Assembly (NCBI RefSeq): GCF_040807025.1
Contig: NC_090947.1
Location: 9,238,001 to 9,302,000 of the forward strand
Direction: 5' to 3'
Length of the DNA: 64,000 bases
From: Struthio camelus
Taxonomy: Eukaryota > Chordata > Aves > Struthioniformes > Struthionidae
Below, in pieces: positions 27,101-60,712 of the stretch; the first letter of the stretch is position 1; each line of letters starts with the position of its first letter. The notes under the pieces are model-generated. The model was not told the origin of the DNA. It saw only the letters and a list, made by a program, of their open reading frames with translations, and searched no databases. A program made the position numbers and the translations under genes.

Positions 27101-30100
27101 CGGCTCCTTCACTCTAACGAGGTTAAGACTTTCCTTCCTCCTGTTTGGCTCAGTTTTAGCTCAGTTTAGCTAGCCTTGGTCTGTTCCACTATTCCCAACC
27201 TGATTAATTTTTTTCCCTCCTCCATCCCTTTGCCTCACTATCCCCACCATGTCTCCAACATACAGCTCCCATTGCTTTGTATCATCTGTCCTTTTTTGCT
27301 CCTCTGTTACAGAGAATGTCCACGACGCTCCATTTCGGCAGTTAATTCTTATTCTGGAAGCTTGTTACAATCTCCAGTACCGTAATGTAAAATTGTTCTC
27401 AGCAGTAGCAAACTATGTGACTTCCACTGTCTACCTTTGGGACAAAAGACAGGTGAGGTTGAGACTGAATGATACCAGTACCAGTAGAATAGGCAGTTTC
27501 TGGTGGTTTCCATTTTATCTTTCTTCATGTTATCTTTGATCCTCAGTAAGCAGATTTTAGGAATACCACTCTGATGAAGTTGGCATAATTACATTTTTAA
27601 AATGCTCTTCTATTCATTAACTTGTAGAAATAGAAAATAAAAGGGATGTTACAATTTGAAAAGTTTGTTTCCATTAAAAATGTCCATTATGATCCATTTC
27701 ACTGACTTTATTTCTTGACTTTAAACAAGTTTCTTCTGTTTTAGATTATCCTTTTTCTCTCTGCCTTCGAGATGCTTGGCTTCCAGCCTAGTGAACTGAT
27801 GGATATTTTTGCTGAGAAGGTGACAGAAGACCCGGAATTCCTGAACTTGAAATATCTTTTGATAGTTCTCCGAGTTTATTCACAACTCAACTATGTTCCC
27901 AGAGGCCAAAAGCATCTGTAGGTTTTGGTTTAGAAAGCCTGGTAATCTGTTACATAATCTTTATAGGGTCATATTTGGAATGGAAACTGATTTCACTTGT
28001 GAAAGAAGTCATAGTCCTGTTTTATTTATCTGTATGTTAAACTTGCTGTGTCTGTTAGTAATTTTTTCTACATAGTAATTTTTCTCAGTACAATTGAAAA
28101 TACAGACCTTCTTGGTTCTAGATTGACCAGACTACTAAGTCTGTTAATGTTGGAATACACAACATATGATTAATCAAGGTGAAAAGGACTTCTAGCTTGT
28201 AGTTTGGTTTGAAATCTGCGTTTTCTATATTTCTTATTTGTGTATTTGATATTTTTCTTCTTCTTTTGGAAAAGGTTTTTTGAGACTCTTCATAGCTGCT
28301 TGAATAAGTACCTCCCCCATATTTCCAACACGGAACTGCTGAAAGCGGTGTATTCACTTTGCATTTTAGGATATCTACCTCATCTTGCACTTGATCAGCT
28401 GCTGCAAAAGGACAACCTTGACGAACTTCTACAGTCAGGTCAGGCCTTACTATGTCATGTTCCTTTTTTAAAAGGGGTAGTCTGCCTCCATACAAAATTT
28501 GTTGTTACTGTGTTAAAGTTTAGAAATTAAGGAAGGCAAAATGATTAATATTAAATGTGAAGTCCTCAAGAAAAAGCTAACGTTATGATGGCGGTCTAAG
28601 TGATACAGTATATTCTCTGATTCTGTGCTGGTCATCAAGCTTATTGTCTTGGGCCACGAGGTGGCCACACTTTAAATAGTAGATCTGCGCAGGGAGAGGA
28701 GTAAATGTGAGATTTGTAGTAATGGTTGAAATGGGTAAGAGCCAGGGGTTCTGTCTTCAATGTTCAGGCATTTTTAAAAAATGTTCTGACATGTTCAGGC
28801 ATGAAAAACAGAGGAAGTATGACTTCTATAAATAAACTTTAATACTTGTAAGTCATGGGTAGAAGTTTCTTTGACTACTTTGAGTTATAATGAGGAACTC
28901 GGAAAAGTTTGTAGAGGAATTTGGTTTCTGCATTTTAATTCCCTACAGCCAACAACGTAGTTTTGCAGAGTAGGAATTCAGTGCAGAGTAAGAGCCTGTG
29001 TCTTACTGTTGAGCCTCCTTTGACTGAACCTGAAAGCTGTGCCGGCTTACAGTTTGGCCTTTTTACTACTGTTAAAGCACAGTTTCAAAATTCTGGCCAA
29101 ACTGTGAGATATCTTCTTTGTTTCCGAAATAGCCTTTTATTTGTCTGGATTTTATAAAGAACTTTACATTTGCTTTCGCATTCAGTGTTCTCCTGAAGTC
29201 TTCTGTAATAACTGACAGCATGCATAGAGCTGTGTACAATAGAGTGGAAAGAGTGGATAAATGGACAGGTTCCAGCCATAGACTTCAGATTATAATTAGT
29301 GAATCAATGGGGTATATTTAAAAATATACTGCAGTTATTCTGAAAAAAAAAAAGTGCTTTGATTCTTATATTGAAATTAATTTGCTCTGAAAGAACAGAC
29401 TGCAAATGATAATAAAATAAAGAATTCTGTGAGATAGTACACTGAATTTAATTTTTCTTTTTGTATGCTTTTTCAGGTGTCCTTTACAAAGAACAAAAGG
29501 AAAGGATGCTTCATTGTGTGAAAGCATGTATGGAACTCGATAGCCCTTCCTTCACAAAGCCTGCATTTGTGCTGACTGAGGAGTTCTCCTCATTAGTACC
29601 TTTTAATCTCAGAAAGGCTCGAGAGGCCCTTCTAGAACTTCTGGGAGATGAGAACATGTTTCGGCAAAATGTTCAGCTGCTGCACAAATACCATATTGGT
29701 ATGAAGCCAAATTACTGTCCTTTGAATATAGATGTGTTATTCCTAAAATAATAAGATATTAACAAATGTGCATAGGGTACAGGGGGTTAGAAATGTAAAA
29801 CTCTGAAGACACTGTCTTCAGCAAATGATGTTCTTGACTGGTGAATCTATTTTCTAGGATGCTTCTGTTAAAGTATTTAATTTACTAAAACATTATGATT
29901 GCGCTTCTTTACAGAACTGCTTTCAACTTTTGTGGAAAGCATCAGAGAACGGGTTGTAGTTATACATAAATCCAGTACGGCCAACCATTTTAGAGAGTTG
30001 CCCTCTTAGTACTAAATCACATCAAAAACAAAAACCAACAACCACTTTCTTTTTGTCTCTGACTTGTTTTTCCTCCAAAACTGGATAAGGTTCGAATTCT

Positions 30101-35400: not shown

Positions 35401-38269
35401 CTTTGAATTCTCCTGCTCATCTGAAGGATATCCACATACAAAAGGGGTGACAAGCTCAGGTCATTGTTATATATCACACAATCGATAAGAAAACATTGTG
35501 AGAAGGCTTTACCAATGTAATTATATAACAAACTTCATCGGCCCAAGGATGAGGTTAAACATTGCAGGATGCACGAACAGATCTAAAATGAGATCAAGAA
35601 ACAGGAAGGCAGAAGATGGGTGCTGCAAGGGTCAAGAAGGCTCTTGTGTGAACAGAAAATAAACTAGTGCCATCTGAGCAAAAATGAAACAAGGTCTGTG
35701 AAGTAATGCAGAATGGGAACACTGAGGGCCTGGAAAAACAAATCATTTCCACAAGCAGCAGGATTTGAAAACCCTGAGGACCTGCAGTTCTCTCCTGCTT
35801 GGATATGCTTACGTCTAAAAACATGCTTGAGCCTTTACTCCAACCTTTTCTTCAGGAGTATCGTATATATATATCAACCACCCAGCCACTCATTCTCAAG
35901 AAACACCCAGGAACCATCTTTAAACTTTTATCTTGCTCTCAGATTGGCCAACAGGTTCAAAAGTGACTACGAAAGGGGGTCTAGGAGTACACTGCAAGAG
36001 TTTGATTGCTGTTAATAAGTCAACCTCTATATAAACCAGACCTTGGAATTAAGGGAATGAAAGTCGCTTCTCAGGTAACTTGACCGTGTTTCTGCGTAGA
36101 CAAGGGGTCTAATAATGCTCTACGTGCAGAAGCCTAAAGAAGTGTCACTGGGCAATAGCTAAAAAGAAGAAAATTGTAGTATTCAGAACTATTACTAAAA
36201 CTTCCCTCTAAAGCTAGTTTTGTTCCTGGCCATTGCAATAAGTAACACTTTATATTACCATTTATTAATGCTAAGCTGTCCTTTTTCCACACAAATCTCA
36301 GAGCAAATAAGCTTGCTTGAATGAGGTATTAGTTTCACTTCCTCTTTGCTGGCACTACAGTATTCAATAATTCAATAATTCAGGAAGAATTGCAGGTGTT
36401 TTGTTGATCTCAACAAAGTGGAGTGTTCATTCCCAGGCCGTGTGTGCTGAAATTAGTTGTCTCAGAACAAAAGCAGAGCCAGTAAAAACTAGCAACGGAA
36501 CATGGTGGTTATCTGTTGACCTCTTCATGCACATATACCTTTCAAGCAAATACGATTTTTAAGTCTGGTTTTGCTAAGCACGTAATTATGTTTCTCTGTT
36601 CTTCACTAATAACCATAGTTGTTTTAGCATTTCTGTATTGTTCATCTCTTCTAAATGATGCAAATATTATGGATCTCTGAGCCAGGTTTAAGTTGTATCC
36701 TTTTAGTAGTAGCAGTTCTTGCCTTTTTTTTCACCAACTCTGGACATTGGCAGCATAAAGGGAAAGTATGAACGTGGTGGCAACTCTAAATAACAGACTG
36801 GGAACAAGGAGAAGGAGAATCTGTCGTGGGGTCTGCGGCAAAAGTCCTTCTGTCCACAGATAACCAGTGAGCTTCTCATTTCATCCTATTTCCTGGCTCT
36901 GAAAACGTTCCCATGCAATACTCTAGTGATATTGTTGCCATGGCACCCATCAAAAGACAGATATGTTCTTGCATTATGTAGCAAGATGTAAATTTTGATA
37001 AACAGGAGAATTTCTTTTTACTTTTCACTACTATACTTACAGGATTCTATCCATGCCTCCAGATAGAGGCAATTTACTGAATACTCTTTGTCATTTATGA
37101 GTACGTGTCACGGTTTACTCTCATCAGTTCAATCCACAAAGGACACTTGATAAATTTTCTGCATTTGCCTGTTTGATTTTCATGGTACAGTTTCCTCCAC
37201 ACATAAGATGTCATCTGAACTTGATCACCCTTTCGAATGGCGGGGAAGTATATGGCGAGTGCAGGGAAAGGGGGAGTAGCTCATCAGCTGGTTTAAATTA
37301 AAGTCAGAGCACTACATCAGTATACACCAGATGAGGTTCTGGCTCTAGAACTTCAAAGGCAAAACCTTGAATTGTTATGCAAGCCTAGTTTTCTCTTTCT
37401 GGTCTAGAGAACAGCTGGTGAACCTGGCTCTGACTGTACAGAGCCTGGTGTAAATAGAGAGAATTGTCACTGAAATCTGATTTGTACTGATACAGATAAG
37501 ACGAGATTTGAGAACTATACAACTGCTTGACATGGAGGAGATTATATATCTGTACGTTCAGACTTTTTTGCACACAATAGCTGGGGAAGCAGGGGAGATC
37601 AAAAATGGAGGCCCATTTGAAGTAATTTCAGTTATGTAATAAAAGATGATTTAATGGTTTTAAATATACATATTAAAGACTAATAACGGGTTGTGGCTTG
37701 CCTTTTATGCTGGCTCAGCAGCTAGAAATCAGCTTTACAGGAACAACAGACAGTGCCTTGACATGGGGAACTCTCTGGGAAGTACAAAGGCAACCTAATC
37801 CCCATGTACTGTGGCGTATGAGGCAGTAAGAGGGTGAAGAATACCAATGCATTTGCTTCTGTTGTCTTAGAACATGCTCCAATTTGCTAATGAATGATTT
37901 GTCACAGGGATGCACTATCTTTTAAATGAAACTTCAGTCTGGCTCTTTTCTATATAACCATATGGAAAAGAATGGAGATTGGGAAGTTAAGCATGCAAAA
38001 AAGTATGCATGTGCATGTATGTTTGGAGATTTGCTCTGTACCAGCCTATGCTCAACGAATAGTACAAAATGATGAATACTTCACTGATGTCAGCACGGAG
38101 ATGTCATTCTCAGTATAGTCTGTACATAGTACAGCACCTCTTTTTTCTCTGAAACTACACACCCCCAAAAAGGTGGTATTGAGGTGGATGAAGGTTGGCT
38201 TGATTCCTGCAGATGCAGAATGAAAAGAGGACTTTCCATTGCTGATGGTAGGTTTGATATTCAAGCATA

Positions 38270-38480
38270 AAAAAGAAGAGAAGAGAAGAGAAGAGAAGAG
38301 AAGAGAAGAGAAGAGAAGAGAAGAGAGAAGAAAAGAAAAGAAAAGAAAAGAAAAGAAAAGAAAAGAAAAGAAAAGAAAAGAAAAGAAAGGAAAAGAAAAA
38401 AGAAAAGAAAAGAAAAGAAAAGAAAAGAAAAGAAAAGAAAGGAAAAGAAAAGAAAAGAAAAGAAAAGAAAAGAAAAGAAA
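38270..38480. repeat. Compound (AAGAG)n / (AAAAG)n microsatellite
   Basis: About 50 bases of AAGAG units are followed by about 150 bases of AAAAG units with a few interruptions. One strand is purely A and G for over 200 bases. Apparent Phe/Leu/Ser-rich proteins on the other strand are artefacts of this repeat. Confidence 0.98.
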
Positions 38481-39626
38481 CATTTATTTGCTGAGTCAAA
38501 CAACTCAGTATTTGCTGAGTAAAAAAAAAAGAGGAGAAGAATAACTATTGAGGTATCAAAAACACTTGTTCCTCTTCCTGCTGAACAGAGGATAAGATGA
38601 TCTGGCACTAAGGCAGATCAGATTCCCTCATGGGGAATCTGAGTTTACCTCCCTGCTTGCCACCACTTATCTGTCTGCCCATGGGCAAGTCACTTAGGAG
38701 GTCTCATGGTGCACCCTGAGTCCTGGTGCTCGCATACATCTTGGCTGTACGCCTTGCTTCGTAGCAGAATGGTAGCCTCAGTGCAGCCCAGAGCCTGCCT
38801 TCCCTCTCTGTCCAACGGGGATGTTCCCATGCCGAGTTGCTTAGTTTTGTAAGCCTTTCCAGGTAGACCTGGCTGATGTTTTCAGATCCACTCTTTGTGC
38901 ACACAGTAGTAACATACTTCAGCCCTGAATCTGGAGAAAGTCTTGACTAACTACAAAAGAAAAAGTTCCCTCTCCCTGAAGAACCCCAAACCTTGTGACC
39001 AGAACTCTTCAACGCAGGCCCTGTCAACACCCTTGCCGCAAGCCTACCTAGCTCTGTCACAATAAGCATTTTGAAGCTTTACTAGCCAGACCCTTCCCCC
39101 GAGCCTTTCCTGAAATATTATTAGCAGCCAAAACAATTTTTTGCAAAATCAGACACCAAAATACAAGCTGCTTCGACTGCATTTTACACCCATACTCACA
39201 TAACATCCTTCAAGCCTGGTCAAGGATGGTTGAAAAAAGCCATTTTTAAGGCTCATTTGCAAAAATACATTGGAAATATCAATAAATATAAGTTATGTAG
39301 AATGGACTTGTCTGACTCAGACAAGATCTTGGATCTGTTTTGGGATCTTCTCTCAAGTACTGTTGCTTCTGTTAATTATCACCACGATTCCCCAGAGACA
39401 TCACAATCGAGTTTATCAGATCTTCATGCAGGTTGAGAGGTCTGTAGTGTTACTCACCTTACATACACTTACACAGATACTTAGCTGTATGCATGTTATG
39501 TTAATTTGTTATGCTCAGTGGTGCTGGTATTAGAGAGAAAGCTAAGAATGAATCACTTTGTTGATAGAACTGAGGCCAAAGGTTAGTATGAAAATGTTGT
39601 ATAGCTGCAAAAGGTAATTACCTAAC

Positions 39627-43569: not shown

Positions 43570-45731
43570 GGCCCGGGTTCTCATGGGGGACTTCAACCAC
43601 CCTGACATCTGCTGGAGGAATAACACAGCAAGGCACAAGCAGTTCAGGAGGTTCCTGGACAGTGCTGATGATAACTTTCTGACGTAGGTGATAGAGGAGC
43701 CAACAAGGAGAGGTGTGCAGCTGGACCTTGTGCTAACAAACAAGGAAGGACTGGTTGGAGATGTGAAGGCTGGGGGCAGCCTTGGCTGCGGTGACTGTGA
43801 AATGGTGGAGTTCAGGATCCTGTGAGGAGGAAGCAGGGCAAAGCAAGTAGGATCACAACCCTGGACTTCAGGAGAGCAAATTTTGGCCTCTTCAGGGACC
43901 TACTTGGAGGAATCCCATGGGTTAGGGCCCTAGAAGGAAGGGGAAGTGATATTCAAGGATCACTTCCCCCAGACTCAAGAACGGTGCATCCTCATGAGCA
44001 ACAAGTTGAGCAAAGAGGGCAGGAGACCTGCATGGATGAGCAAGGAACTCCTGACAACACTCAAACAGAAGAAGGAAGTCTACAGAATGTGGAAGCAGGG
44101 AAAGACCACTTAGGAGGAATATAGGAATGTTGTCAGAGTGTGCAGGGATGAGACAAGGAAGGCCAAGGCCCATTTGGAGTTAAAGCTGGCAAGGGATGTC
44201 AAGGACAGTTAGAAGGGCTTCTTCAAATACATCAATAGCAAAAGGAAGGCTAGGGAAAATGCGGGCCCACTACTGAATGGGGCGGGGGCCCTGGTGATGA
44301 AGGAGTCAGAGAAGGTAGAGTTGCTGAAAGCCTTCTTTGCTTCAGTCTTTACTTCTAAGGCCAGCCCTCAGGAATTCCAGACCCTGGAGACAAGAGAGGA
44401 AGTCTGGAGAAAGGAAGACTTTCCCTTGGTCGAGGAGGATTGGGTTAGAGATCGTTTAGACAAACTTGACATCCACAAGTCCGTGGGCCCTGCTAGGATG
44501 CACCCCCGAGTGCTGAGGGAGCTGCTGGATGTTTTTGCTAGGCCACTCTCCCACCATCTTGGGAAGGTCATGGAGAAGAGAGGTACGTGAGGACAGGAAG
44601 AAAGCCAGTGTCACTCCAGTCTTCAGAAAGGGCAAGAAGGAGGAGTCAGGAAACTACAGGCCTGTCAGCCTCACCTCCATCCCCGGAAAGGTGGTGGAAC
44701 AGCTCATCCTGGAGGTCATCTCTAAGCGTATGGAGGACAAGAAGGTGATCAGGAGTGGTCAGCACGGATTCACCAAAGGGAAATCATGCTTAGCCAATCT
44801 GATAACCTTCTACGATGGGATGACTGGCTGGGTAGAGGAGGGGAGAGCAGTGGATGCTGTCTACTTGGACTTCAGCAGAGCTTTTGACACTGTCCCCCAT
44901 CACATCCTCATAGGCAAGCTCAGGAAGTGTGGGCTAGATGAGTGGACAGTGAGGTGGATCGAGAACTGGCTGAATGGCAGAGCTCCGAGGGTTGTGATCA
45001 GTAGTGCAAAGTCTGGTTGGCGGCCTGTAGGTGGCGGTGTCCCCCAGGGGTCAATACTGGGTCCAGTCTTGTTGAGCATATTCATCAATAACTTGGATGA
45101 AGGGACAGAGTGCCTCCCCAGCAAGTTTGCTGATGACACAAAACTGGGGGGAGTGGCTGAGACGCCAGAGGGCTGTGCTGCCATCCAGAGGAACCTCAAC
45201 AGGCTGGAGAGATGGGCAGAGAGGAACCTCATGAAGTTCAACAAAGGCAAGTGCAGGAACAACAAGTGGACCATGAGCCAGCAACGTGCCCTTGTGGCCA
45301 AGAAGGCCAAGGGGATCCTGGGTTGCATTAGGCAGAGTGTTGCCAGCAGGTCCGAGGGAGGTAATCCTCCCCCTCTACTCAGCCCTGGGGAGGCCTCACC
45401 TGGAGTATTGTGTCCAATTCTGGGCTCCCCAGTACAAAAGAGACATGGAGCTACTAGAGCGAGTCCAGCAGAAGGCTACCAAGACAATGAAGGGACTGGA
45501 GCATCTCTCCTAGGAGGAGAGGCTGCGGGAGCTGGGCCTGTTGAGCCTGGAGAAGAGAAGACTGAGGGGGGATCTTATCAGCGTATATAAGTATCTGAAG
45601 GGAGGGTGCCAAGAGGATGGGGACAGACTCTCCTAGGGGTGCCCAGTGATAGGACAAGAGGCAACAGGCACAAACTGAAACGCATGAAGTTCTGTCTGAA
45701 CATGAGGAAACTTCCTACTGAGCAGAGTGAA
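43570..45731 (+). mobile_element. CR1 non-LTR retrotransposon, 5'-truncated and decayed
   Basis: The element begins within the C-terminal endonuclease region ([11 protein letters not shown]), then LDLVLTNKEGLVGDV. The linker has AFFASVFTSKASP. The reverse transcriptase domain has [52 protein letters not shown] and the catalytic FADDTKLGG. The thumb region has [19 protein letters not shown]. The RT part stays open for roughly 330 codons (about 44.6-45.6 kb), but the endonuclease part has a TAG and frameshifts. A short internal deletion follows FNKGKC at about 45.25 kb. It is transcribed in the same direction as CPO and lies just upstream of it. A dead copy by its truncation; the family is autonomous when complete. 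Confidence 0.95.
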
Positions 45732-46091
45732 ACAAATACATTATTATTTCAAACACCCAGAAATCAAGAGAGCCTTCATTTAAATAAAGTTTAGGAATCA
45801 GAAAAGCCTTTCGAACATACAAATGGGAGCTGATAACTGTTTATTTATTTCTGTCTTCTACAGCCTCTGGGTTACATCCATATTCTGAAAAAAATCCACT
45901 ACGTTAAATGGGACGGCAGCGCATCTCCACTACTTAATACTGAAAGAAGCATCAGCCTTTTTACTGCAGACGAGTGCACAAGAAATCACAAATGTTAATA
46001 TTCTTTAATGTTGGTAAGTTTGGAGTTTTTTGATTTTTTCCTCCTCTTTTCTTGCAATATCACACATCCTTAGAGCTACTTTCAGTATAGG
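45732..46091. other. Non-CR1 segment separating the CR1 body from its 3' tip
   Basis: CR1 similarity stops after CTGAGCAGAGTGA and resumes about 360 bases later at the terminal CR1 motif. The intervening AT-rich DNA matches nothing I recognise. It could be an insertion with loss of CR1 bases, or the two CR1 parts may be independent insertions. Confidence 0.5.
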
Positions 46092-46432: not shown

Positions 46433-46512
46433 ATGCAACTTCTTCTTGGAATCATCTTTTCCCTAGGGATCCAAGTTCCTGGAACACTCAGCTTGAAATT
46501 GCAACATGACGG
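46433..46512 (+). CDS. CPO: CPO exon 1 (signal peptide)
   Basis: MQLLLGIIFSLGIQVPGTLS is a signal peptide, followed by LKLQHDG with a split Gly codon. Donor GACGG|GTGAGT is strong; exit phase 2. Confidence 0.8.
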
Positions 46513-49500
46513 GTGAGTGTGAACCAGGTATTGTGAAGAACTGTGCATGCGGTGACATTCCCACACACTGTGTAAAAGAATAATAATAACAATTCTGAAA
46601 CGAAAACCTAGAGAAAGGGTTACTAAGCTGTACGCTTTATAAGATTTGGAAAGAAAACATAATGATGAGAAATGAAGAAGAGTGAATCAATACAAGCCAA
46701 TAAAGACATGACTGCAGTCGTAGGAGACACAGAATGCCCCTCAAATGCACCTAAGGGTGCTCTAATTCCATTAGCGGAAAATCATTTAGCTTAGCCTCTT
46801 TCATAAGGAACTTTTGAAATTAGATCCTCTGGGAATAAAATGCCTTTTCTGAATACATTGAAGGTAAAAATGACTGAACAAAGGTAGATCCATTAATAAA
46901 AGAGGTTGTGTGAAAATAATGGTGTCAAAAGCAGCGCAGACACTGAATCCCGGTTGGAAATCTGTAACAACAACAAAAAGACATAGAGAAGAAATATGGG
47001 CAGGAAGCAAAAAACCCCAGAGGTAAAAATAACTGATAAAGTCTGGGGAATAAAAACTGCAAAACCTAAAAATATGCTAATGAAATTGATCCAGACAATC
47101 TTCAGGCAAAGGTTTTCAGGGAATGAGATTATCATGTTTTTATTTCTGACAAGTGATTTTGAAAAAGCATGAGTTGGCTAGTTTTGCTGTATTCTTCATT
47201 CTCTGTTCTGTTTCTTAAGAAACTGAGTGTTATCAACTTGTGCTGTTTACCTATTTTGTCCCATTCCCCCTCACCTTTACAAGAAATGATATGTCATTCT
47301 GTGCATTTACAGCAGTTAGGATTTGCAGGAGGGGCAGAAATGTAGTGAGAAGGCTGACTATCCACATATAACTTTATAAACGGAATTTTCTAAAATAAAT
47401 AGAAAAGGTAGCCCAGTGCTAAGTGTTTCTAGAGTAACTGTATCCCATGGATTTAGTTTTAAAAAGGGGAGAAAAATGAAGCAACACTTACTGCAATAAG
47501 TTCCTTCCTAGTCTACCTGTCCTACATCTCTCCTGGCAGAGCGCATACGGTTACCACTTCTTCCTCTAAAATATCCAATTTTCCTTGGATAATCTTTAGA
47601 TTTGTATCATGGACTCACTCAGAGCCTGTTGATTTCACTGGATAGAATTCAATGAACCTTTAGTAATGCAGTGTTTATCTTGGTTTCTAATTGCTGTCCA
47701 GAACTGAACCTGACACCTGCATAGGATTTGAAAGCACCCTTAATAGCATGGTAAGTGTGATTTGGAGTTGGCAGCACTTGCACAAAGATGAAGCAACCGG
47801 TAAAGGCCATCAGGACTAACATTTTTATTGTCATTTACTCTGTGCAACAATCTAAATTAAAGATCAGAGGCTATGAGCATCCAAAGAAATGCAGCTTGTG
47901 CTGAGAACAGTCCTTCAATTTGGTAAGAAAGCTTAACTGTAGTATTACAAAATTGTTGTCCTTACATGGTCACATGGGCTGACTTTGCACTTCTGCACTG
48001 AGAATCCTAGCCCATAATCATAAACGAGTGTGTGCTTTCTAATCTTAGTGTACCATTAAAAATGATCTGTCTCCACACTGGCTATTGTAAAAGGTTTATC
48101 AGTAAATAAGAGCTGGCCATCTGGCAGCAATCTGACTGTCTGGCATTTCTTTCATTTGCTGTAATTAAGACATAATGTCAATGAGGATAGAAAGATATTA
48201 CAGGATATTGTTTCCCTTCCTGATAGACAAAGAGCAAAGCAAGCCCAGGCATTTAGAGAGAATAAACTATGAACTGCAGCTGAGATGTTTATTCTCCTAG
48301 CAAGATGTTTATCCTGCATCTATGAGGTTCTATTGCAAAGACATCATGGCTGTTGTACCGAATTGTTAGCAATGCAAATGTAATCATTTTGCCCCATAGA
48401 TAAGGGTGCTATATACTTACAGCATCTCCCGAACCAATAGTACATAGCCCATTTTAACTATTAAGTTCTGTGCTGGTCTATCAGCAAAGGTGGTATGTTA
48501 AAGAGAGGGATGTTAAAAAAAATCCCCTATTTTTCAGCTGATAATGTGAATGAACAGTGAATTCTATTTCCATGTATATTAAGCCGATAATTGTACATTT
48601 GTGTACGGAATCACAAACGGTAGTAGCAGTTGCAGTTCAGATGATGAGAGCGTATTATATTGATGACCATAATGATCCACCAGGCAAGGCTTTTGCAGTA
48701 AGAGTTTCTGTTACAGAATCTTTAAATGTAAAATGTTCTTTGTGTTTGTACATGCCCTGTAATGGTTCCAAAGCCCACTGAAGTCACTGAAGGAGACTGT
48801 GAAGCAGTAGTTACTGGTTACTAACAAATAAAAACGTTTCTCAGGTTCTTCATTTTATCACATCAGTAGTGGACAACTGCCATCTCACCTTTGAGTAATG
48901 TAATGTAGTCATCAAAATCTGCTCCTTATTATGAAACCCTTTCATTGGAAAGGTCACACTTTCTACCAGGCCTGGAAAGGTGATCTTGATGAACACTAAA
49001 AAAAAAATAGAAAAAGAATTGTGAAGGGTTTTTTCCAAAGTAGAAGTTACGGATTTGCTTTTTCTGCATTTCTCACCATTTTAGTTTGTTCTCTGTAAAC
49101 TTGCAATAGTTTTTTTCACATTAAGCCTGCAGAAAATGATAGTTTCATGGTAACTAATTAAAACATATACTCAGACACTGAATCTAGGTGTCTTTTTAAA
49201 AAAATATAAAGTTATCATACACCCCGTACCAGAAATTTTTCTTTACTGCTAAGAGAGTAAGAATATGCAACTTTGCAGGCCGCTGTATTCACTGTTTGTT
49301 GAATAAATTGGTTATTCTCATGGCAAGCAGTTTGCGAGCATCTCACTCTCTTAGCAATGTTTATATACCACGGCTATCTAACTTTTTTGCGTGCTGAAGC
49401 AGATCAACAAAACATGAATCCTATCTGAAATAATTCCTGAACAGAAGGGAGAAAAAAGTGATATCTGATGAAGTAAATAGTTCATTATGTACTACCAATG

Positions 49501-49840
49501 ATCATGTTTTGGCCCCAGTCCTGCAAACACAGAAGCACATACACCAGGGCTCATGCAAGCTGTTGGATTCAGTGAAGCTGGTTTGATGGATAAAGGTCAG
49601 CTACTGGCAAGTAAGCAGAGCTAACCTAAAGTCCTAGCAACAGAAAACCCATATCACTTAGTCCTACATGTAGCTAAAGCATTCCAGGAATTCATCATTC
49701 AGCCATGCTTTTGTTCAAGCAGCACTCAGTTACATGCTCTGTCTTCCTTCCGCATAACAAAGTACCGCCTCTTGACTTATGGAAATCATGGAGACTTTAG
49801 CAGATATTAAACTGATCTTATTTCTCCACTGAATTTCTAG

Positions 49841-49916
49841 GGATCAGGTTTTGCATATTGTGCCAAAAACACTTCAGCAAGTCCAGCACCTTCAGCATCT
49901 TTGCAGCACTTTGCTG
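49841..49916 (+). CDS. CPO: CPO prodomain exon A (fossil or alternative)
   Basis: In phase with exon 1, encodes DQVLHIVPKTLQQVQHLQHL and CSTLL. This resembles the start of CPA/CPB activation peptides (HQVLRI...LEHLQ). Good acceptor TTTCTAG and donor GCTG|GTAAGT. The frame is open. Human CPO, as I recall, has no such exon. Confidence 0.7.
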
Positions 49917-50308
49917 GTAAGTAAGAATAACCATGTGCGCATAAAAACCAGAGAGGTGTCTTGGTCTGCAAAATAGTTTTATATGTAACTTTGGACAGAA
50001 ACAAAGATAAAAGTTAGCTTGGGAAAGCTTTACTTTTTTTTTTTTTCTTAATTTAGGGTTTATAAAGAGAAGTTAGTTTCCTTGCATGGCTCTGTGAAGG
50101 CACTGCTCCCTTTCAGTGGCGCCTGAGTCCATGGAAACACTAAGCCTGTGCTGCATGCTCTATGAACAGATGGCTGGGGAATAGTTAGGGGAAAATTTGA
50201 AGAAACGCTTCTTCCATGTATTGATCTGCAGCTACTCTATCTTGAATATATTTTTTCATTCTGTAAACAGAGCTTGATTTTTGCATTTCTTTCTTCTCCT
50301 CTGCCCAG

Positions 50309-50446
50309 CTGGATCTGTGGAAGCCCCTGCTGCCTGAAGACATCTGGACTGGAGAAGACCTGCATATGAGGGTCCCAGCCCCTCTGGTGCAGGAGGTGAA
50401 AGACAGCTTAGATCAGCATCTGATCTCCTATGAACACGACCTCTAA
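50309..50446 (+). pseudogene. CPO: CPO prodomain exon B with lost donor and in-frame stop
   Basis: Starts LDLWKP in phase with exon A and contains MRVPAPLVQEVKDSLDQHL and ISYE, the classic second half of a carboxypeptidase prodomain. The junction to the next exon (VLIHDVQ) requires a donor after TATGA at 50433. The sequence there is ACACGA, not GT. Reading on reaches TAA at 50444-50446. Confidence 0.7.
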
Positions 50447-52915
50447 TTTCCTGATACGAAAGTCTGTCTCTAACAATCTTCCTTGCTATCACAAAAGGGC
50501 TATAAGCCCTTTCTAATGAGCAATCTGCAAATACTAGCGATAGGACTCAACCTTTGTTCCCAAGTGGCTCCAACTCCACTTGGCCCAGTGCACAGGAGCT
50601 GTGTCCAACTCTGAGTTTCAAAGGCACATTCCCCTATGCCCTGTTTATTCACCTTCCAGCGAGCCTGGGCTGTGAATGTGGAGCTGGGATGTCTGATCTA
50701 TCTTTTTTTCCTGCAGCTGCCTCCTCAGTTGCAAAGGATGGCTCTGAGACATATGACTCAATTCTCTAGTCAAGCCAGGACACCAAGCTTGATACATCCA
50801 CCTCTTAAAGGAGCATGCTTTGCTCTTGGAAAGTAGGAATACTTGCACAAAGTGTCCTCCCTATTTTGGAGAACCTGAAGGTTTGGTCGATGTCACTGAA
50901 AAGCAGCAGAGCCTCTGTTGCTCTCCTTCTCCCTCCCTGTCTTTTGTTGCTACCTCTGGTTTGGAAAAGAGCCCTTTCAAAGTGAATTTCCAGACAGTTT
51001 CTTCAAAACTGCAGTTTCCCTAATGTCCTCAACCCCGCTGCTGTGGTCAAGCTGGTAAGAATTTCCTGCTGCCATCGAGCCAAAGAGAGACAGCCCAGTC
51101 TGACACAGAGGGGCTAGTAGGAGGCCCCCACTGTGCAGGCCACTTGCTGCAGAAAGCTTCGCAATGCTTTTGCATGCCTATCCAGTCCACATCTTGGCCA
51201 CTCACCATGTATCTGCTTCCAACCAGAAGATCTAATTCACTGTGGAAGTTTCAGATACAAAGAGTGTTCATAAAGCCAAACTAAATAACTGGGCAAAGAT
51301 CTATTTCTCACAAGTCAGACTCCCATGCAGAACTGACTTATAAACCATTCTGTAGTCATCCAGTGCTAATGAGAATGGCCTATGGACATACAGTGACATT
51401 TACTAATCAAAGATAAGCTAAAGCAGGATTGGGCCACTTTGAAGCTGTTTAGAATTAAAGCTGATCTTGACATCCTGCCTGACAAATTCTTTTTAGTGAA
51501 CGTGATGCCCTGACAACTAGAAATGCGGAGAGATGAGGCGGAAGCCAGTACGAACGATCTAGCATCGGGTTTAGATATTCAGGACTTAGACCGCATTCCA
51601 CAAGATATTTAGTCTCTTATTTATATCGAGGCTTTTCATGTTCTAATGGTTTCAATTGATTCTAGTGGAAATTTTAAGTCTACATTGAAATTAGAAGCTT
51701 GGGATTTTTTCTTGGACTGGTACCAGAACTGTGTCCACATTGTGTAGGAGCTGCAAAAGAGAGGTGGCTTATTTCAAAGTGAAGCTGAAATTTTGGCTTT
51801 GTACCGCAGGAAGGTGGAAGAGAGGAGGAAAGCAATGTTATAGTTAAATTTTTTTAACAGATTCAAAGCAGGAGTCATCTTTTAGAAGGTAGTTGACATG
51901 CAAGGAAGGTAAAATGACAGTTAGGTGTGTAATGACAGAGACATAAATGACAAATTATAATCAGGACATCAATATTCCGGCTGTGTCAAACTCTACGATT
52001 TCAGTTCTCCAGAGCTCTGATAAGGCTTTTTGCGTGTGCGGTTTGAGTTCATGGGAATTTGCACTGCCTAAATTTTAGTTTGAAGCTCAGATTTGAATAA
52101 ACATCAAAGCTCAAAGTGAAACTCAGCTGTAACCACTCTTAAAAGTTATACGCGCAGCTTCCAGAAATGCCAATCAGTGCTAGTGTCAGCAGAACAGCCT
52201 ATTAGCACTTACAGTGTTCAAAACCAACAATGTTTAAGCTGCCTTTGCAGTTGTCTTATCGCATGTAATTACAATGAGCACAGATTTATAACAGTGTTAC
52301 AAGGGGCTGTGTCCAGTAAGAAAGCACAGCGCACGATCCAAAGTCCTCTGGAGCCAAGGCAAATGTTTTACTGACTCCCTTGATCATGGAATTAGGCCCA
52401 TACTATGCCTTTTGAGTTAATTTGTAGCTAAAAATCAAGAAGAGTTTTTTTTAAAGAAAATAGCTTTTTGGTTCTGATTTTTTTTGCAAATTGCAATACA
52501 TACCTTTGTGAAGTCTTTGCAAATTGAAAATTTCTTCATGAAATATAATGAAACAATAATCTTAAAATTTTCATTTTTCCCCCCCTTCCTCTAAAAGGTG
52601 GAATTTTAGAGTTTTGCCCAGCAGTAGAATTGGTGAAGGACACAAAAATCTTGATTTTTTGGGGGTTGAAAATTGTTACTTAAAAAAAAAAAAGTGATTA
52701 AATTGTTACTTTAATTGTTATTAAAATCCAATTAACAACTCAGTATTGTGAAAGTATGTTGATGAATTTGCTGTGTCTAGTAGATGGACAAGCAAGATAC
52801 GTGGGGCAGGCCACAACAGAAGGGGATAAATCCTTTGATTTACTGATGTAAGCAGTGTATCCACCATAATAGCTGGGTGTTTTCTTTTCTATCTCCCCTC
52901 TTCCCCTCTCCTCAG

Positions 52916-53030
52916 AGTCCTTATACATGATGTGCAGGCACTTGTGGATCAGAGCGTGCCAAGGGAGGGGAGCAGCCACAAGCAGGTGCCAGAAGGCTAC
53001 ATCTATACCCACTATCATCCAATGGAAGAG
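52916..53030 (+). CDS. CPO: CPO exon with prodomain end and start of mature enzyme
   Basis: Encodes VLIHDVQALVDQSV, a linker and GYIYTHYHPMEE (human YSYNIYHPMGE). It needs a phase-2 partner, which either prodomain exon B or exon 1 could provide. Acceptor CTCTCCTCAG, donor GAAGAG|GTAAAG. Confidence 0.85.
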
Positions 53031-54081
53031 GTAAAGAGGAACCCACGCGTGTTCACTTTCTCTGTTGCTGCTATTTTATAAACACCATAGGAAGCCACTG
53101 CGTTTTTGCAGAAAGCTCTGCTGAAGTCAGTGGAGCTCCTTCTACCTTCAAGGGTTTTTTCTGAAGGACTGGTCCTTACTCTTTACCAGAATCTTGGCCC
53201 AGTTGAATTGACTGTGAATTTGCCATTGATTTTGATCAAACCTCATTTTCCTCCCTGATGAAAACCTAAATGCTCTGTGTGAAGTAGCCATATTATTTTG
53301 CAAGCAATATTCTGAATTTCAGTTGATTGGTTTGCTACTTTTCTACCTTATCATGCTTTCATCATTATCTTATCTTTAGTATTATTTTTCATTCAAGCCC
53401 CAGTATTTTTGATGCCGAGCTGATTATGAAGTACAATGACCATTGCTGTCTCTGGCATCCCAGGGAGGAAGCAGAGATGAGCACTGGTAGACCAGGAGGA
53501 GGAAGTAATTTAAGGACAATTTTTGACACTTTCAAAGAGAATAATGTGGATGGGGAGTGAGGACTTCTTGGTGCCGTGTTTCACAGACCAGCGGGTAAGC
53601 CTGGAAAAAGGCTCAGCACTGGATTCTTTCTTCTAGCCACGTGATAACGAGGGAGAGAGGTGTCAATCCTCATATATTTTGTGTACGACTGCTGATGAAC
53701 TCCAATGTGGAAAATCAATACTGACATGGAAGAGACTGTAACACTGTTTTGTGGATTTGATGGTGTGGTCCCAGGGCTGGTGAAATCAACAGAAAAATTC
53801 CCAATGGGATGGGCATATTAAATGAGATCCAGAATAGAGACTCAGTGCTGTATTGCAGTGATGTTATCTTTTAGCATCCAGTGCTGTAAGAGATGATCAT
53901 TTGTTTGCTCAAAGGCAAGTGAAAGGCCCTCCATCAATGTTAAGTGATACCACAGATTGATAGACGCTCTCAGAAAAATATTGCTTGTCTACACAACAGA
54001 AAACACTTTCATCTGGAAACGGAGGTGGGAAAGAGAGGGAAACTGCCCCTTAGCACCAAGAATTTTCTGTGACTATTTCAG

Positions 54082-54183
54082 ATTTATCAATGGATGACTC
54101 AAGTAAAGGAGAGCAACAGTGAGCTGGTGACTCAGCGCTACCTGGGAAGGACGAGAGAGAATCGAGCTATCTATTATCTGCAG
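54082..54183 (+). CDS. CPO: CPO exon IYQWM...YYLQ
   Basis: Thirty-four codons, phase 0 at both ends: IYQWMTQVKESNSELV, then RYLGRTRENRAIYYLQ. Same length class as the human exon. Confidence 0.9.
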
Positions 54184-54948
54184 GTAAGAGAAGAACTTTA
54201 CTAAAATAAATAAAGGGTATCTTTACCAAATAGCACATGAGGGAAGACAGGATTCAGATTTTTCCTAAGACAGTGCCCATCCCAAGTCACCGAAATAACA
54301 GGAGATGGGTCTACTCCTCTACAGTGCTGTTAGATTTGCCACCTTTCACATACACTATCACCATATTCATGCCATTGCTCTTTTGTGGTGAAAACCACAA
54401 ATTTGATTTAAATGCAATTTCAAAATACAAATCAAGCTAAAACTAGTTTGGTGACAGCTGTGTGTGAGGGGTTTGGTTTTGTTTTGTTGTTATTATTCTT
54501 CACAGTAGACAACTTTTCTAGTATGACTATTCCACAACATTTTTTATTGGAAGCCCTGGTAAAAACAAGAGTCTTAATCATTAAGTTAGTTATTGTTTAA
54601 TCTGTTCCTATCACCGAGAAAAATTAGATTCCTTGCCTTTTCGTGCTTCCCCTTCTAAAAAAAGAATCTCAAAATAAGAACAGTCAGTCCTCTGAATGAC
54701 TAATATAAATGAGGAAGAAACCGTTTTATTGACACTCTTGTTCAACAGAGACTTTAAGATTCTTGCCCTGAGATACTACAGAGATTGGGTTATTAGGAAG
54801 GAAAGCCTGTCATAACGAAGTCTGTAATAATAATTATCTCAGATGGCTCAGCAGTATATCAAGGAACATCTTTTTCTTCCTGTAATAGGCTGAGCTATTT
54901 TATTGTAACATAACAGTTTTCCATACCATCATTTCTGCAGTCTCTCAG

Positions 54949-55053
54949 ATCAGTCAACCACCAAATACAACCAAAAAGATCATTTGGATGAACTGTGGGA
55001 TTCATGCCAGAGAATGGATCTCTCCAGCCTTCTGCCAGTGGTTTGTGAAAGAA
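54949..55053 (+). CDS. CPO: CPO exon with zinc-binding HXXE
   Basis: Encodes [16 protein letters not shown], then [16 protein letters not shown] and VKE. His and Glu of HARE are the first two zinc ligands. A second AG lies eight bases upstream of the used acceptor. Confidence 0.92.
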
Positions 55054-55685
55054 GTGAGTCTTCACTTATCCAGTTAAATAATAAAAAACACAGATCACTT
55101 TCGGTAGTTCAGTTCTCTTCTGTACCTTGGTACCAAGTATTATGCTTTTTCTGTAAAAACGTGACTTTCAAAATTAATACATAGCACAGATAATTGTGGA
55201 GACATAAGATCAAACCACAATTTGAGATGAGATACATGATGATATTTGCTAGCACGTTGTGTCCTCCATCTGAACAGACTCTAAGGCCACAGAACTTGAT
55301 GGCAATCTCTCCATTTGCCACAGTGGCTTTTGGATCAAGCTTCTCTGCATTAAAAGCCACAGTCCTCCCTGGGAGAAAAGGACCCTAAAATACAGTATAG
55401 CAATGTTCCTCCTGCACTGAAAGTTTCTGGCCTACAGTGCCTATGGTAACCATGAAGCTTTCATCCCTGCAAGATTGTACTAATATGAAGTGCACTACAA
55501 TTGGATATATTGTCACTTTGTAAACAGTGGAAGGCAGATATCTCAATGTACCTGGGATCAGGCACATCTTGGATACCACAGTAATATTGAGGAGTGAGTG
55601 ATTTTTTGATGACAGTTCTAAACTGGTTCTTGCCAGTGATTACCACTAGATTCTCTGTTCAGTCCTTCGCCTTTTTTCTTTTCAG

Positions 55686-55796
55686 ATTCTACAAAATTAC
55701 AAAACTCACCCAAAGATAAGCAGATTTCTTCAGAATCTGGACCTGTACATCTTGCCAGTCCTCAGTGTTGATGGTTATATCTATTCCTGGGAAAAA
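55686..55796 (+). CDS. CPO: CPO exon ILQNYK...SWEK
   Basis: Thirty-seven codons in phase 0, the same number as human: ILQNYKTHPKISRFLQNL and VLSVDGYIYSWEK. Donor GAAAAA|GTAAGT. Confidence 0.92.
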
Positions 55797-56854
55797 GTAA
55801 GTAGTGAAAATCCAGGGACTGGACTGAAGGCTGAATGTGCACAGCATGTTTCTGTTAATTTTGGGTATAGTCACAGTAATTACAGTTAAACAGAAAACAG
55901 TGGCCGAATCATTACTCACACAAACTCTCTCATGGTGGGGGGGTTTTGTTTCTTCTGGTAAATCAGCAGTCATTTGAGATGACAGAGCTAAAAACTCCTA
56001 GCAAATGCCACGAGCCTTGGGAAGAAATAAGGACAAAGCTACAGGATCCACCGCTTTTGGTACTGGATGACAGAGTTAAGCATACCTTGAGGAGTCAGCT
56101 GTGCTTCACAAGGGCTCTGAGTTAGCTGACGGGACCCACCTTTAGGAGGAGGGGTAGGAGGAGAGTTGGTCGATTACTGGACTATCTGGCTTTGAAATAA
56201 GTGTGCCCTCCCAGATAATCTTCCTTTCTGATATGAAGGATAATGCCAAGTGTCAGTCTTCAGCAGTTCCCATTAGGGTTCTGCACTCCTGAGCCTAGCA
56301 GACACATGTTTTAATGCAGGACCTTAGCGTGGCCCAACAAACTGGGCCTCCTGCCATGTGGATCCCAGCTCGCTACCCAGCAGGTTTGCAGCACGCCACG
56401 CACTGCAATTCAGCCAAGACGCTCGCACAGGCAGTGCAGTGAGTTCTAGTACAGCAGGAAACCAAGGAGCAGGGGCAAGATTAGCTGACAAAAAAGCATT
56501 CATCTCAAATCTGAAACGAACATGTGTTTGACTATAATCTCTCCTGGACACAGAGGGTATCTCTCACAGTGCCAAGACTTTCCCAGGAGTGCAACGCTGC
56601 ATGGAAACAGTAGAGTACTAAGGAAATAGGATGTTTTTTTCTGAAGCTCAGGAGGCCCGTTTCAAGGTGTGTGCAGGCTTGTGGAAGATATCAGCCTGGC
56701 TGTAGCAGATAATGAGGTGTTCTGTCACTAAGCTTTGTCCCCCTTGCACTCAGAGTCCCCTACAATGCAAGAGCTATTCAGAATGCAGAGGACTGAAACA
56801 GAGGAACCTTTACACATTGATTGTTGTTATGTAACTGAAGGTATTTCTGTTTAG

Positions 56855-56946
56855 GAACGTTTGTGGGAGGAAAAACCGTTCTCCATATATGAATGGCACC
56901 AGCTATGGAACAGATCTGAACCGGAACTTCAATTCCTCCTGGGGCA
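56855..56946 (+). pseudogene. CPO: CPO exon with first 1-base frameshift
   Basis: Reads ERLW in the incoming frame, then RKNRSP...GTDLNRNFNSSWG only after skipping one G of the GGG at 56865-56867. The length is 92 bases where phases require 91, the human-equivalent length. The shift falls right before the substrate-binding Arg of WRK. Confidence 0.85.
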
Positions 56947-57537
56947 GTAAGTTCCGAGTACTTCAGATCTGCTACATAAATACAAACCAAGAACAACAAC
57001 TAGTCTTTGCAATAAAATGATCATGATCTCCTTTAAGAAAGGAATACTCATTTTGGTGTCATCAAGACTTATGTAAAAATAAAAACTTGGTTTGTAGAAA
57101 TTTTAAGTCACTGGCTTTCAGCTAGCATTTATTTTTGTGAACAGAAGACTGCTGCTTGTGTAAGCATCCCTCTAAGTCACTGCAGAAGCAAGCATCAGCT
57201 ATATGGCAGCAATGTTAAGAGCTGGTCACTTAACAGCCAGTATTTGTGTTTGCTGTGAATTTCAAGGAGTCTCCAGAAGTTCCCGGGCAGGTGGTGCACT
57301 GTGGTGGCGACAGAGTGCTTTTGTTGCAGCCAGCTTGAAAACGTGTTAAATATTTCAATCTTGTAGCAAATTTTAGTTGCTACCAACAGTGAAAAGCGTT
57401 AAAGTCCCTCTGAGCTGACTAGTCTCCCTGCCCACGTACATACATGCCCTAACGCTCTAAGGTAAACTTCCCCGTTCCCCCTGAATTGGGGTTTATGTAT
57501 TTCTCTCCTTTCATTCACGTTTTGTATTCCTCTCCAG

Positions 57538-57741
57538 GTATTGGTGTTTCTTATAATTGCAGCAGTGACATCTTCTGCGGATCTGGACCAGAATCGGAGC
57601 CTGAGACAAGAGCTGTGGCTCAGTTTATCGAGAGGAAGGAGGAGGACATTTTGTGCTATTTAACAATTCACTCCTATGGACAGTACATCCTCACACCATA
57701 TGGGTCCAACGACCAAACCTCCAAGTAACAACAAAGAACTG
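57538..57741 (+). pseudogene. CPO: CPO exon with second 1-base frameshift
   Basis: Encodes IGVSYNCSSDIFCGSGPE, then DDILC-like EEDILCYLTIHSYGQYIL with the third zinc ligand His, then YGSNDQTSK. One surplus base within 57723-57728 creates TAA at 57726-57728; NNKEL follows in the shifted frame up to donor CTG|GTGGGG. Sixty-seven residues plus one base match the human 67-residue exon. Confidence 0.8.
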
Positions 57742-59135
57742 GTGGGGCAAAACACTCCCCTTCCCTACTGGTAGAGAACAGGCCTGCTAGTAGCCTGTGG
57801 CACAACTCTATTTGCCCTCTTGCCTGTCCCTCAGAAGAACGGGGCTTATCCAGGGACTTGGCACCCGGAGTCACTGTCAGTCCTGACGTTGCCCTCACAG
57901 GGAGGACAGGTTATGAACTGACATTGGCTCCTCTCCCCTCCTTAGCCAGGAGAGTTGGAACCATCCCGTGCAGAGTTTAATGTCTGCATTTGCTCCGTAT
58001 ATCTTAAATATATTCTCTGGGTTTACAACTCCTCTCATGTCTATATAATAATATATCAGAGCTCTTGGCTTCCGTTTAATGCTACTTTCATTCCCTGTAA
58101 ATAGAAGCTCTTGGGACATTGACTTAGTGTTTGTATGGCGGAAAAGTGAAGTACCAAGGAAAAGAAGTAGCAAGCAACTTTTCTTCAAAGAAAGCCTCCT
58201 TTGAGGCAGGTCCCCCAAGCTTTAGCATGCTCATTTCCCTAATGTAGGGCTGTAGTCACCTCATCTTGCTTGGCTGTCTGTTTTATGGGCAGTATTTGCA
58301 AAGCCTGTTTGCCTCAGAAGTTAATCCTAATCCTTCATTTTAAAATAGGAAAAATGGATTATTACAGATAGGGTTACTGCAGTGCAAGAGGAGTAGAGAA
58401 AAGCATCAAGTTGTCCTTGCAATCAATTGTTGCATGCAACATGTGTTCGCACTTTGGGATGCAGGTATATTATACACACAGAGTTGTCGCAGTTGTGGCC
58501 AGAAGGGGTGTTCCAAAGATGTCCATGAGGAGAATGGGAGCAAAGGCGGCACCTGCTTTTGGTTACTTCTCCTCCTCAGCTTCCGAATGTTTTAAATCGA
58601 GTTTATTAAAATGTGTACTTGTGAACCTTGCTGCGCCTGGAGCACTAGTCAAGAGTATGACAAACTTGGGTTCAGCCTTCATATGAGATGCTGGGGAAGT
58701 TATTTAATCTGTCTATGGCTCAGTTTCTAAAGACTGTGAGTCACAGAACCTATGGTAACGGAACAAGCATAAGAGATCAATCACTCTGCTGTAGTTCTCT
58801 CTGCTCCCTGGAGACCAGTATGCTACAGAACATAGACCCTAATTCTCTGAAATACAGCCCTCTACAACAAAACAAATACCTTCTCTACCTAATAGCAGAG
58901 TCATTTTTGAATTGTAAGGTAACTTGCATTAAAAAAAAAAAAAAAGAGGAAGGAAGAAAAAAATGCCCAAATGTTTGTAATGGGTTTCTGTAAAGTCCTG
59001 AATTAATAATATTAAAACTTGAAGCCAACCACATGTAAACTCAAAGCTGAAAGAAAAGAAAGTTTTGGCCTACTCAAAATAGTTGCCAAATTTACCGGTA
59101 CTAATGAAAATGCTGTTCCTATTTTGAACTTACAG

Positions 59136-59220
59136 ATGCAAGTTGCAGAGAAAGCAGCTACTGCCCTGACGGGGAAGTATGGGACCAATTATCAAGTAGG
59201 AGCAACCTCTTTAATTTTAT
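59136..59220 (+). CDS. CPO: CPO exon MQVAEKAATAL...
   Basis: Encodes MQVAEKAATALTGKYGTNYQ and VGATSLIL, matching human VGQKAANALKAKYGTNY. Acceptor GAACTTACAG, donor TTTTAT|GTAACT, phases 0 in and 1 out. Confidence 0.88.
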
Positions 59221-60443
59221 GTAACTTTATTTATTTTTCCCTTTGATTGCTGTTTTTCCAAAGGAGAGTCATTCTTGTGTCATAGGTATCAGTAAGCGCT
59301 GCTTCGCCGAGTTTCCTCTTTGAGTAATATTTAATGGGCTGCTTCAGTGCAACATCTAAGTAGCAGGCATTTGAATACAAGATAACACTGTACGTTATAA
59401 AACTGACTGCAGGAAGGAAGCATTGATCAGAAGCTAGTTCTTACATGATCTCCTCACAGATATATCACAAGGGACAGAACAAGACTGGTGACAGATCATC
59501 CTGGCCCTGCTGAAATCAGCAGCAAAACTCCTATTTGTCTTCACTGGAGTCAAGCAAAAATTAAAATCCCAATCAGGTCTATAGTTGCTCCATCAGACAT
59601 TATCACACGGCAGCTGCTTGCAGTTCTGTGTGAAATATGCTGGTTTCAGCCTCGTTCCTAGCAAACTAGATTGCTACATCAGGAAAGTACCATCACAGCT
59701 GATATTTGCTGACAGTCTTAAGGTGGAGGACCAGAGGGCCATGGAGACTGCCTGGTAAAAACAACCTTCTCCCAGGAAGCAATAAGTCATGCTAGTCACT
59801 CATAATAGTAGGCAGTTGGTTTCAGTACCCATGTGGTTTTGCATATTCCCAATGTCTGTCTGTGCCAGTCCCAGAGTCCCACAAGTCACTGCATGAACAG
59901 CGAGCGCAGTGCAAGTATAAGGTAACATGTCCATGCCTATGACTGTGTCTATTTAGCCAGGGTTTGTACTTATATTGAACGGGTAAGAAAAAAGATCCAT
60001 GAGGCAGAAGAGCAGTGATACAGAGAGTGGCCAGAATTTTTTCAACTTTGAACAAAATTTTGCTAAAAAACAAACACACAAAGAACTTCCAAACAGTGTC
60101 AGCGTAGGAAGTGAAGTATGAGAAAATAAACAAATGGCCAATCCATCTTGTACCCAACGGTAATCATGGCAAAATGCTAAAAAGCACACAATCCCTGGAA
60201 CTCGTCTCCTGCTATTGTACAATACCATCTTACAGAGAATCGTTTCACTGAGGAAATTCTGTGGAGTGGAAGACTTTTAGTACAATTAAGAATCACAGCA
60301 CCTAGAAATTCTGCTCTCTCTGTCAGTGACATACGATGCTTAGTTCAGGGATTCTGGGACAATCTTGCATTTACTACAGCAAGAAGTATTTTCAAAGAAC
60401 AGTGCCTAATAAATTTATCTCCCCTCTATTTTTAAATTCTCAG

Positions 60444-60712
60444 ACAGTAACTCAGGCTCCTCGCGGGACTGGGCTCACATGATAGGCATCCCTTTCTCCT
60501 ACACATTTGAGCTGCGAGACAAGGGAACTCATGGATTTGTTCTACCCGCAGACCAGATCCAGCCTACACGTGAAGAGACGATGTTGGCTGTGACAGCTAT
60601 CATAGACTATGTTGATCAGAAGTATTTCCCAAGTGGAGGTGTGAGGCTGACCTCTGGTAGCCTGGGCCTGAGCCTTTGCCTGAGCGCTGTAGTTACATGG
60701 ACTGTCTTTTAA
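60444..60712 (+). CDS. CPO: CPO last exon (catalytic Glu, GPI-type tail)
   Basis: Encodes YSNSGSSRDWAHMIGIPF, SYTFELRDKGTHGFVLP and QIQPTREETM, then a hydrophobic tail ending VVTWTVF and TAA. The Arg codon of SSRDW is at 60464-60466. Confidence 0.93.

Follow-up and report, generated by a model that had tools for sequence, protein, structure and literature searches.

A probable young unitary pseudogene of prodomain-bearing carboxypeptidase O in the ostrich genome

Carboxypeptidase O (CPO) has been described in several vertebrate lineages. According to the excerpt of PMC9925722 used here, most fish and mammalian CPOs are without a complete prodomain, and four CPOs of Xenopus keep it. The CPO of mouse and rat has become a unitary pseudogene, which is located between Fastkd2 and Klf7 (excerpt of PMC3580494), and the jejunum transcriptome of the chicken includes a gene named carboxypeptidase O (excerpt of PMC9387010). 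In a search of titles and the beginnings of abstracts, with partial coverage of the literature, no paper on the CPO prodomain or on CPO loss in birds was found among the matches listed.

The window analyzed here, i.e. the whole stretch of 64,000 nucleotides of Struthio camelus DNA (contig NC_090947.1, positions 9,238,001 to 9,302,000), contains MDH1B (minus strand), FASTKD2 (plus strand) and CPO (plus strand), in this order. CPO comprises eleven coding exons that extend from 46433 to 60712 (Table 1). When the joined CPO product was compared with solved structures, human CPO (5mrv) scored 465 bits, and the next chain, procarboxypeptidase B (1nsa), 299 bits; the identity to human CPO is 201 of 307 aligned residues (65%), with the two frameshift codons set aside. 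The closest similarity to human CPO, the neighboring FASTKD2, the Arg at position 255 and the GPI-type tail (the latter two assigned by eye in exon 11) together identify the locus, as far as sequence comparison goes, as the ortholog of CPO. A search of the entire genome (1.45 Gb in 262 contigs, an assembly that may be incomplete) yielded no second CPO locus: 10 of the 33 matches represent the locus described here (all in contig C6, 9287842-9298709), and the remaining 23 are either more distant A/B relatives or weak. The paralogs are named by resemblance (CPB1-like, CPA6-like etc.); two paralog matches contain a stop within the match, not necessarily within an exon (TAA in C1:1982795 and TAG in C9:17822239).

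Several other features were observed in and around the window. A degraded LINE (43580-45750, with an RVT_1 frame at 44517-45590), CR1-like by eye, is located roughly 0.7 kb 5' of the start codon of CPO, and a long AAAAG-type microsatellite (38224-38544) gives rise to overlapping lysine/glutamate-rich open frames. On the minus strand, a weak EF-hand_2 match at 2538-2810 (21.5 bits, below the cut-off of 27) is perhaps an exon of dystrotelin (DYTN), a neighbor of MDH1B in human. Elsewhere in the assembly, contigs C40 (70.4 Mb) and C41 (89.9 Mb) share, near their ends, 3 kb that are 99.3% identical. Such a likeness is what one would predict if the two were avian sex chromosomes, with a large W, that still have a pseudoautosomal part in common, and it would be in keeping with a palaeognath. 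The genome size, a first contig of 226 Mb followed by many smaller ones, and the CR1-like reverse transcriptase are consistent with a bird.

Table 1 Features of the ostrich CPO locus (positions within the window).
Feature	Position	Strand	Description
CPO exon 1	46433..46512	+	contains the start codon; encodes the signal peptide (MQLLLGIIFSLGIQVPGTLS...; by eye); phase 2 at its end
CPO exon 2	49841..49916	+	first half of the activation peptide, 76 nt, acceptor intact, donor strong
CPO exon 3	50309..50433	+	LDLWKP...RVPAP...ISYE, the second half of the activation peptide; 125 nt
Lost exon 3 donor	50434..50435	+	AC; GT in the CPB1-like and CPA6-like paralogs
TAA in frame	50444..50446	+	reached if exon 3 is left unspliced
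CPO exon 4	52916..53030	+	last part of the prodomain/connecting segment and first part of the catalytic domain
CPO exon 5	54082..54183	+	
CPO exon 6	54949..55053	+	HxxE zinc motif (GIHAREW); Asn instead of Asp before CGIH
CPO exon 7	55686..55796	+	Ser instead of Asn in the N-x-DGY motif
CPO exon 8	56855..56946	+	92 nt; between ERLW and RKNRSP, a +1 frameshift (GGG run at 56865-56867)
CPO exon 9	57538..57741	+	204 nt, +1 frameshift near 57723-57724, then TAA at 57726-57728
CPO exon 10	59136..59220	+	
CPO exon 11	60444..60712	+	FELRD with the catalytic Glu, Arg at position 255 (specificity), GPI-type tail, stop

Exons 2 and 3, read up to the TAA, score 39.2 bits against the Pfam family Propep_M14 (cut-off 22.1, E 7e-10), the prodomain region within the joined CPO chain reaches 57.4 bits with the same family, and the solved activation peptides of CPA2, CPB2 and CPA1 also match these two exons; the likeness is thus beyond that expected by chance. 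For exon 3 alone, the whole-genome Propep_M14 search gave 21.6 bits, or 22.1 with neighboring sequence (E = 0.3), that is, at the cut-off; among the nine matches of this genome-wide search for prodomain exons, six are over the cut-off, and CPO exon 3 is the weakest of the six. The paralog at C1:191 Mb has no prodomain exon among these whole-genome matches. Exon 1 ends with the donor CGG/gtgagt (score 10.4 on a simple matrix with assumed base frequencies), exon 2 is flanked by the acceptor tttctag and the donor CTG/gtaagt, and exon 3 follows the acceptor tctgcccag, with the frame open up to the TAA; both prodomain exons are free of nonsense mutations and frameshifts. The remainder of the last codon of ISYE (GA/A) is supplied by exon 4 (A/GTC CTT at 52916). 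Placement of the exon 3 end after 50436 was also considered and dropped: with the junction at 50433, ISYE-V-LIHDVQ aligns with ISYE-T-MIEDVQ of CPA1 without an extra residue and, thus, 50433 is the correct end. A second exon-3-like copy was sought between 50447 and 52915 with seven motif stems in the three forward frames, and none was found (one chance LWK match). Judged by sequence, exons 2 and 3 are the true prodomain exons of CPO. The preliminary description had read an activation peptide from the same two exons with intron phases 2, 0 and 2, and this reading stands, the phases with exon 3 ending at 50433; the analysis likewise agrees with its statements that human CPO is without these exons (as given in the excerpted text of PMC6214572), that AC takes the place of the donor expected after 50433, and that a TAA comes shortly after ISYE, where it is the fourth codon, preceded by the three sense codons H-D-L.

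Within this genome, the CPB1-like and CPA6-like paralogs have a GT donor at the homologous codon (TATAG/GTAAGT and TACAC/GTAAGC, respectively); these are two of the five paralog prodomain exons over the cut-off, and in the other three (the CPA1/2-type cluster in C1) the junction apparently falls later, after DVQ. When each of the 12 GT or GC sites between 50309 and the TAA was used as the donor, every chain stopped early, at codons 78 to 269; no functional in-frame donor was found nearby. The GT at 50396 is the sole site among the 12 with a score like that of a real donor (6.0), and the corresponding chain stops at codon 86. Use of the GT at 50317 or of one of six GC sites leaves exon 4 in frame (phase 2), at scores from −2.9 to −15.0 (those of GC sites are low by construction of the matrix), and the resulting chains still end at the exon 8 frameshift.

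The lengths of exons 2 and 3 are both not multiples of three, and their sum is 201 nt; a tidy loss of the prodomain therefore must drop both exons together. Joining exon 2 to exon 4, i.e. skipping exon 3, shifts the frame and leads to a stop at codon 57, and a transcript of this kind would be expected to be destroyed. Because skipping of exon 3 shifts the frame and the donor of exon 2 is strong (10.4, the second of the nine CPO donors), loss of the exon 3 donor should cripple the gene instead of simply removing the prodomain, with probable damage to the gene as a whole. Nonetheless, joining of exon 1 to exon 4 is in frame (80 + 115 nt) and gives a prodomain-less start similar to that of human CPO, which raises the alternative that, after the loss of the exon 3 donor, CPO remained in use for a while as a constitutive enzyme of the human type, with exon 1 joined directly to exon 4, and that its catalytic frames broke only later. 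The fact that both bases of the donor (AC) differ from GT while the catalytic lesions are few speaks for such a course of events. We nevertheless regard it as unlikely, given that exon 2 would have to be skipped as well, yet its acceptor is intact and its donor is among the best of the gene, that the exon 2 to exon 4 chain stops so early, and that the two prodomain exons carry no disabling mutations. The two-base change at the donor would agree with exon 3 having been idle for longer than the few catalytic lesions suggest, unless it is the result of one event; two independent donor substitutions would be rare in the short time implied by the lesion count, and one two-base or indel event would suffice. 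Donor loss may have come first, followed by the death of the gene.

The frame that runs from exon 1 through exons 2 and 3 is open to the TAA and matches Propep_M14, and the splice sites of exon 2 are preserved. Conceivably, then, a short transcript of exons 1 to 3 could encode a secreted free activation peptide of 97 residues that would inhibit digestive carboxypeptidases. We give this very little credence, and equally little to the related idea that, after the donor loss, exons 1 to 3 were retained as a short gene for an inhibitor acting in trans on the carboxypeptidases of the same animal, with the part encoding the enzyme left to decay: intact frames are expected in a young pseudogene too, and the nearest AATAAA is located 1.65 kb downstream of the TAA, with the nearest ATTAAA (51454) 1 kb downstream. 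In the literature on free propeptide inhibitors, work on CPA1 is among the matches listed.

The catalytic exons carry two further lesions, which were absent from the preliminary description. Exon 8 is one nucleotide longer in CPO than in all six A/B paralogs of the same genome (92 vs. 91 nt), and exon 9 comprises 204 nt compared to 203 nt in three paralogs and 200 nt in the other three, all of the paralog lengths being in one phase (where there were several candidates, the one at the homologous junction was chosen). At both sites, the CPO peptide resumes in another frame, from ERLW to RKNRSP in exon 8 and from NDQTS to SNNKEL in exon 9; the paralog peptides are unbroken across the exon 8 shift site. 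The possibility that the two shifts compensate each other was ruled out because both are +1 and, accordingly, do not cancel. The chain in which exon 1 is joined to exon 4 reaches a stop at codon 208, and the full chain with both prodomain exons at codon 275; every chain tested loses Arg127, Asn144, Arg145, His196 and Glu270 (numbered after bovine CPA, following the excerpt of PMC9925722, and transferred via the alignment with human CPO). Thus, the exon 8 and exon 9 frameshifts truncate the enzyme in every splice form tested. There is no open frame through the catalytic domain that includes these five residues together with His69 and Glu72; the residues are encoded in broken frames. Points against a pseudogene are that, outside exons 8 and 9, the CPO exons are open, that all splice sites besides the exon 3 donor are present, and that the separate frames still encode the catalytic residues. 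The gene is predicted to make no working enzyme.

Substitutions were also observed at conserved sites. In this comparison, exon 7 was recovered from three of the six paralogs, and the C6 matches to CPO itself as well as one short spurious exon 6 match were omitted. Cys138, encoded in exon 8, is replaced by Ser in CPO, and the Asp before CGIH by Asn, both residues being present in all six paralogs and in human CPO; the Asn of NxDGY, present in all three recovered paralogs and in human, is replaced by Ser. In the exon 8 equivalent of the human SWC motif, Cys is replaced by Gly. The conserved-site substitutions may predate the frameshifts. In exon 9, both cysteines of NCSSDIFC are kept; they are presumably disulfide-paired in CPO with the two cysteine positions of exon 8, where the partners are seemingly lost (Ser and Gly).

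Single-base insertions are a common type of assembly error, and one assembly was examined. Under the explanation that the two frameshifts are errors of this type, CPO would be alive and would have lost the prodomain alone. This appears improbable, given that the shift sites are short runs (GGG and AA), not long homopolymers, that no break was seen in the neighboring genes or the six paralogs at the positions compared, and that the substitutions at conserved sites are independent of the frameshifts. As a control of assembly quality, nine exons of FASTKD2 (1808 nt, window positions 20467-30662) chain in phase without a stop and match FAST_1 and FAST_2, in a model made by eye that has neither the gene end nor a reference protein; similarly, the alignment of the MDH1B frame at 16593-17204 with solved MDH1B covers 190 residues and shows one- or two-residue gaps but no frame break. 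With one assembly read, two single-base errors or a polymorphic null allele remain formally conceivable as objections to a pseudogene.

Taken together, these observations make it likely that the locus is a CPO gene, found once in the genome, that has decayed to a young unitary pseudogene of a prodomain-bearing CPO. The lesions (the donor and the two +1 shifts) are found in a gene that occupies a conserved place, as indicated by the order MDH1B-FASTKD2-CPO, and no functional copy was found elsewhere, with one CPO locus in the assembly searched. The ancestral CPO would have been a complete zymogen, in which the signal peptide was followed by the activation peptide of exons 2 and 3, a catalytic domain with the acidic specificity associated with Arg255 and, last, a GPI-type tail. 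Later mutations would have removed the donor of exon 3 and disrupted the reading frame in exons 8 and 9. The loss of the exon 3 donor is probably one lesion of this general decay, perhaps the first. Thus, of the interpretation offered in the preliminary description, the part that stands is that these are true prodomain exons whose donor is gone, and the part that is not supported is that they are a snapshot of how CPO loses its prodomain, given the frameshifts in exons 8 and 9 and the out-of-frame junction of exon 2 with exon 4. The locus also shows that one broken splice site should not be judged in isolation from the rest of the gene. A rough likelihood estimate based on the frame lesions puts the time since the loss at 0.009 to 0.018 neutral substitutions per site, with an interval of 0.002 to 0.054 across the three indel ratios tried (ratios of 0.05 to 0.15, a frameshift fraction of 0.8 and a transition bias were assumed).

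A prodomain-bearing CPO and the death of CPO are each known; their combination in this lineage was not met in the part of the literature covered. The present locus indicates that CPO in this line used to be an ordinary zymogen like that of Xenopus, a point of relevance to the timing of prodomain loss in mammals and fish. If confirmed, this would be a second lineage, after rodents, in which the intestinal acidic carboxypeptidase is dispensable. The rodent CPO pseudogene (excerpt of PMC3580494) is similar in its adjacency to Fastkd2 and in being broken by frameshift and an early stop, but differs in lineage and lesions, and the prodomain exons are still readable in the present locus. Within the ostrich genome, the CPB1-like and CPA6-like genes share with CPO the position of the exon 3 junction at the homologous codon, whereas, unlike CPO, they retain the GT donor and have unshifted exons 8 and 9. 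The CPO paralogs of Xenopus tropicalis have the M14 activation peptide in common with the ostrich gene; however, there are four copies, which as recombinant proteins are active after trypsin treatment, one of them weakly (excerpt of PMC9925722), compared to one copy with broken frames in the ostrich. Human CPO (PDB 5mrv), with its 65% identity, shares the Arg255-type specificity and the GPI-type tail with the present locus but, unlike it, has no prodomain and is an active enzyme (excerpt of PMC6214572).
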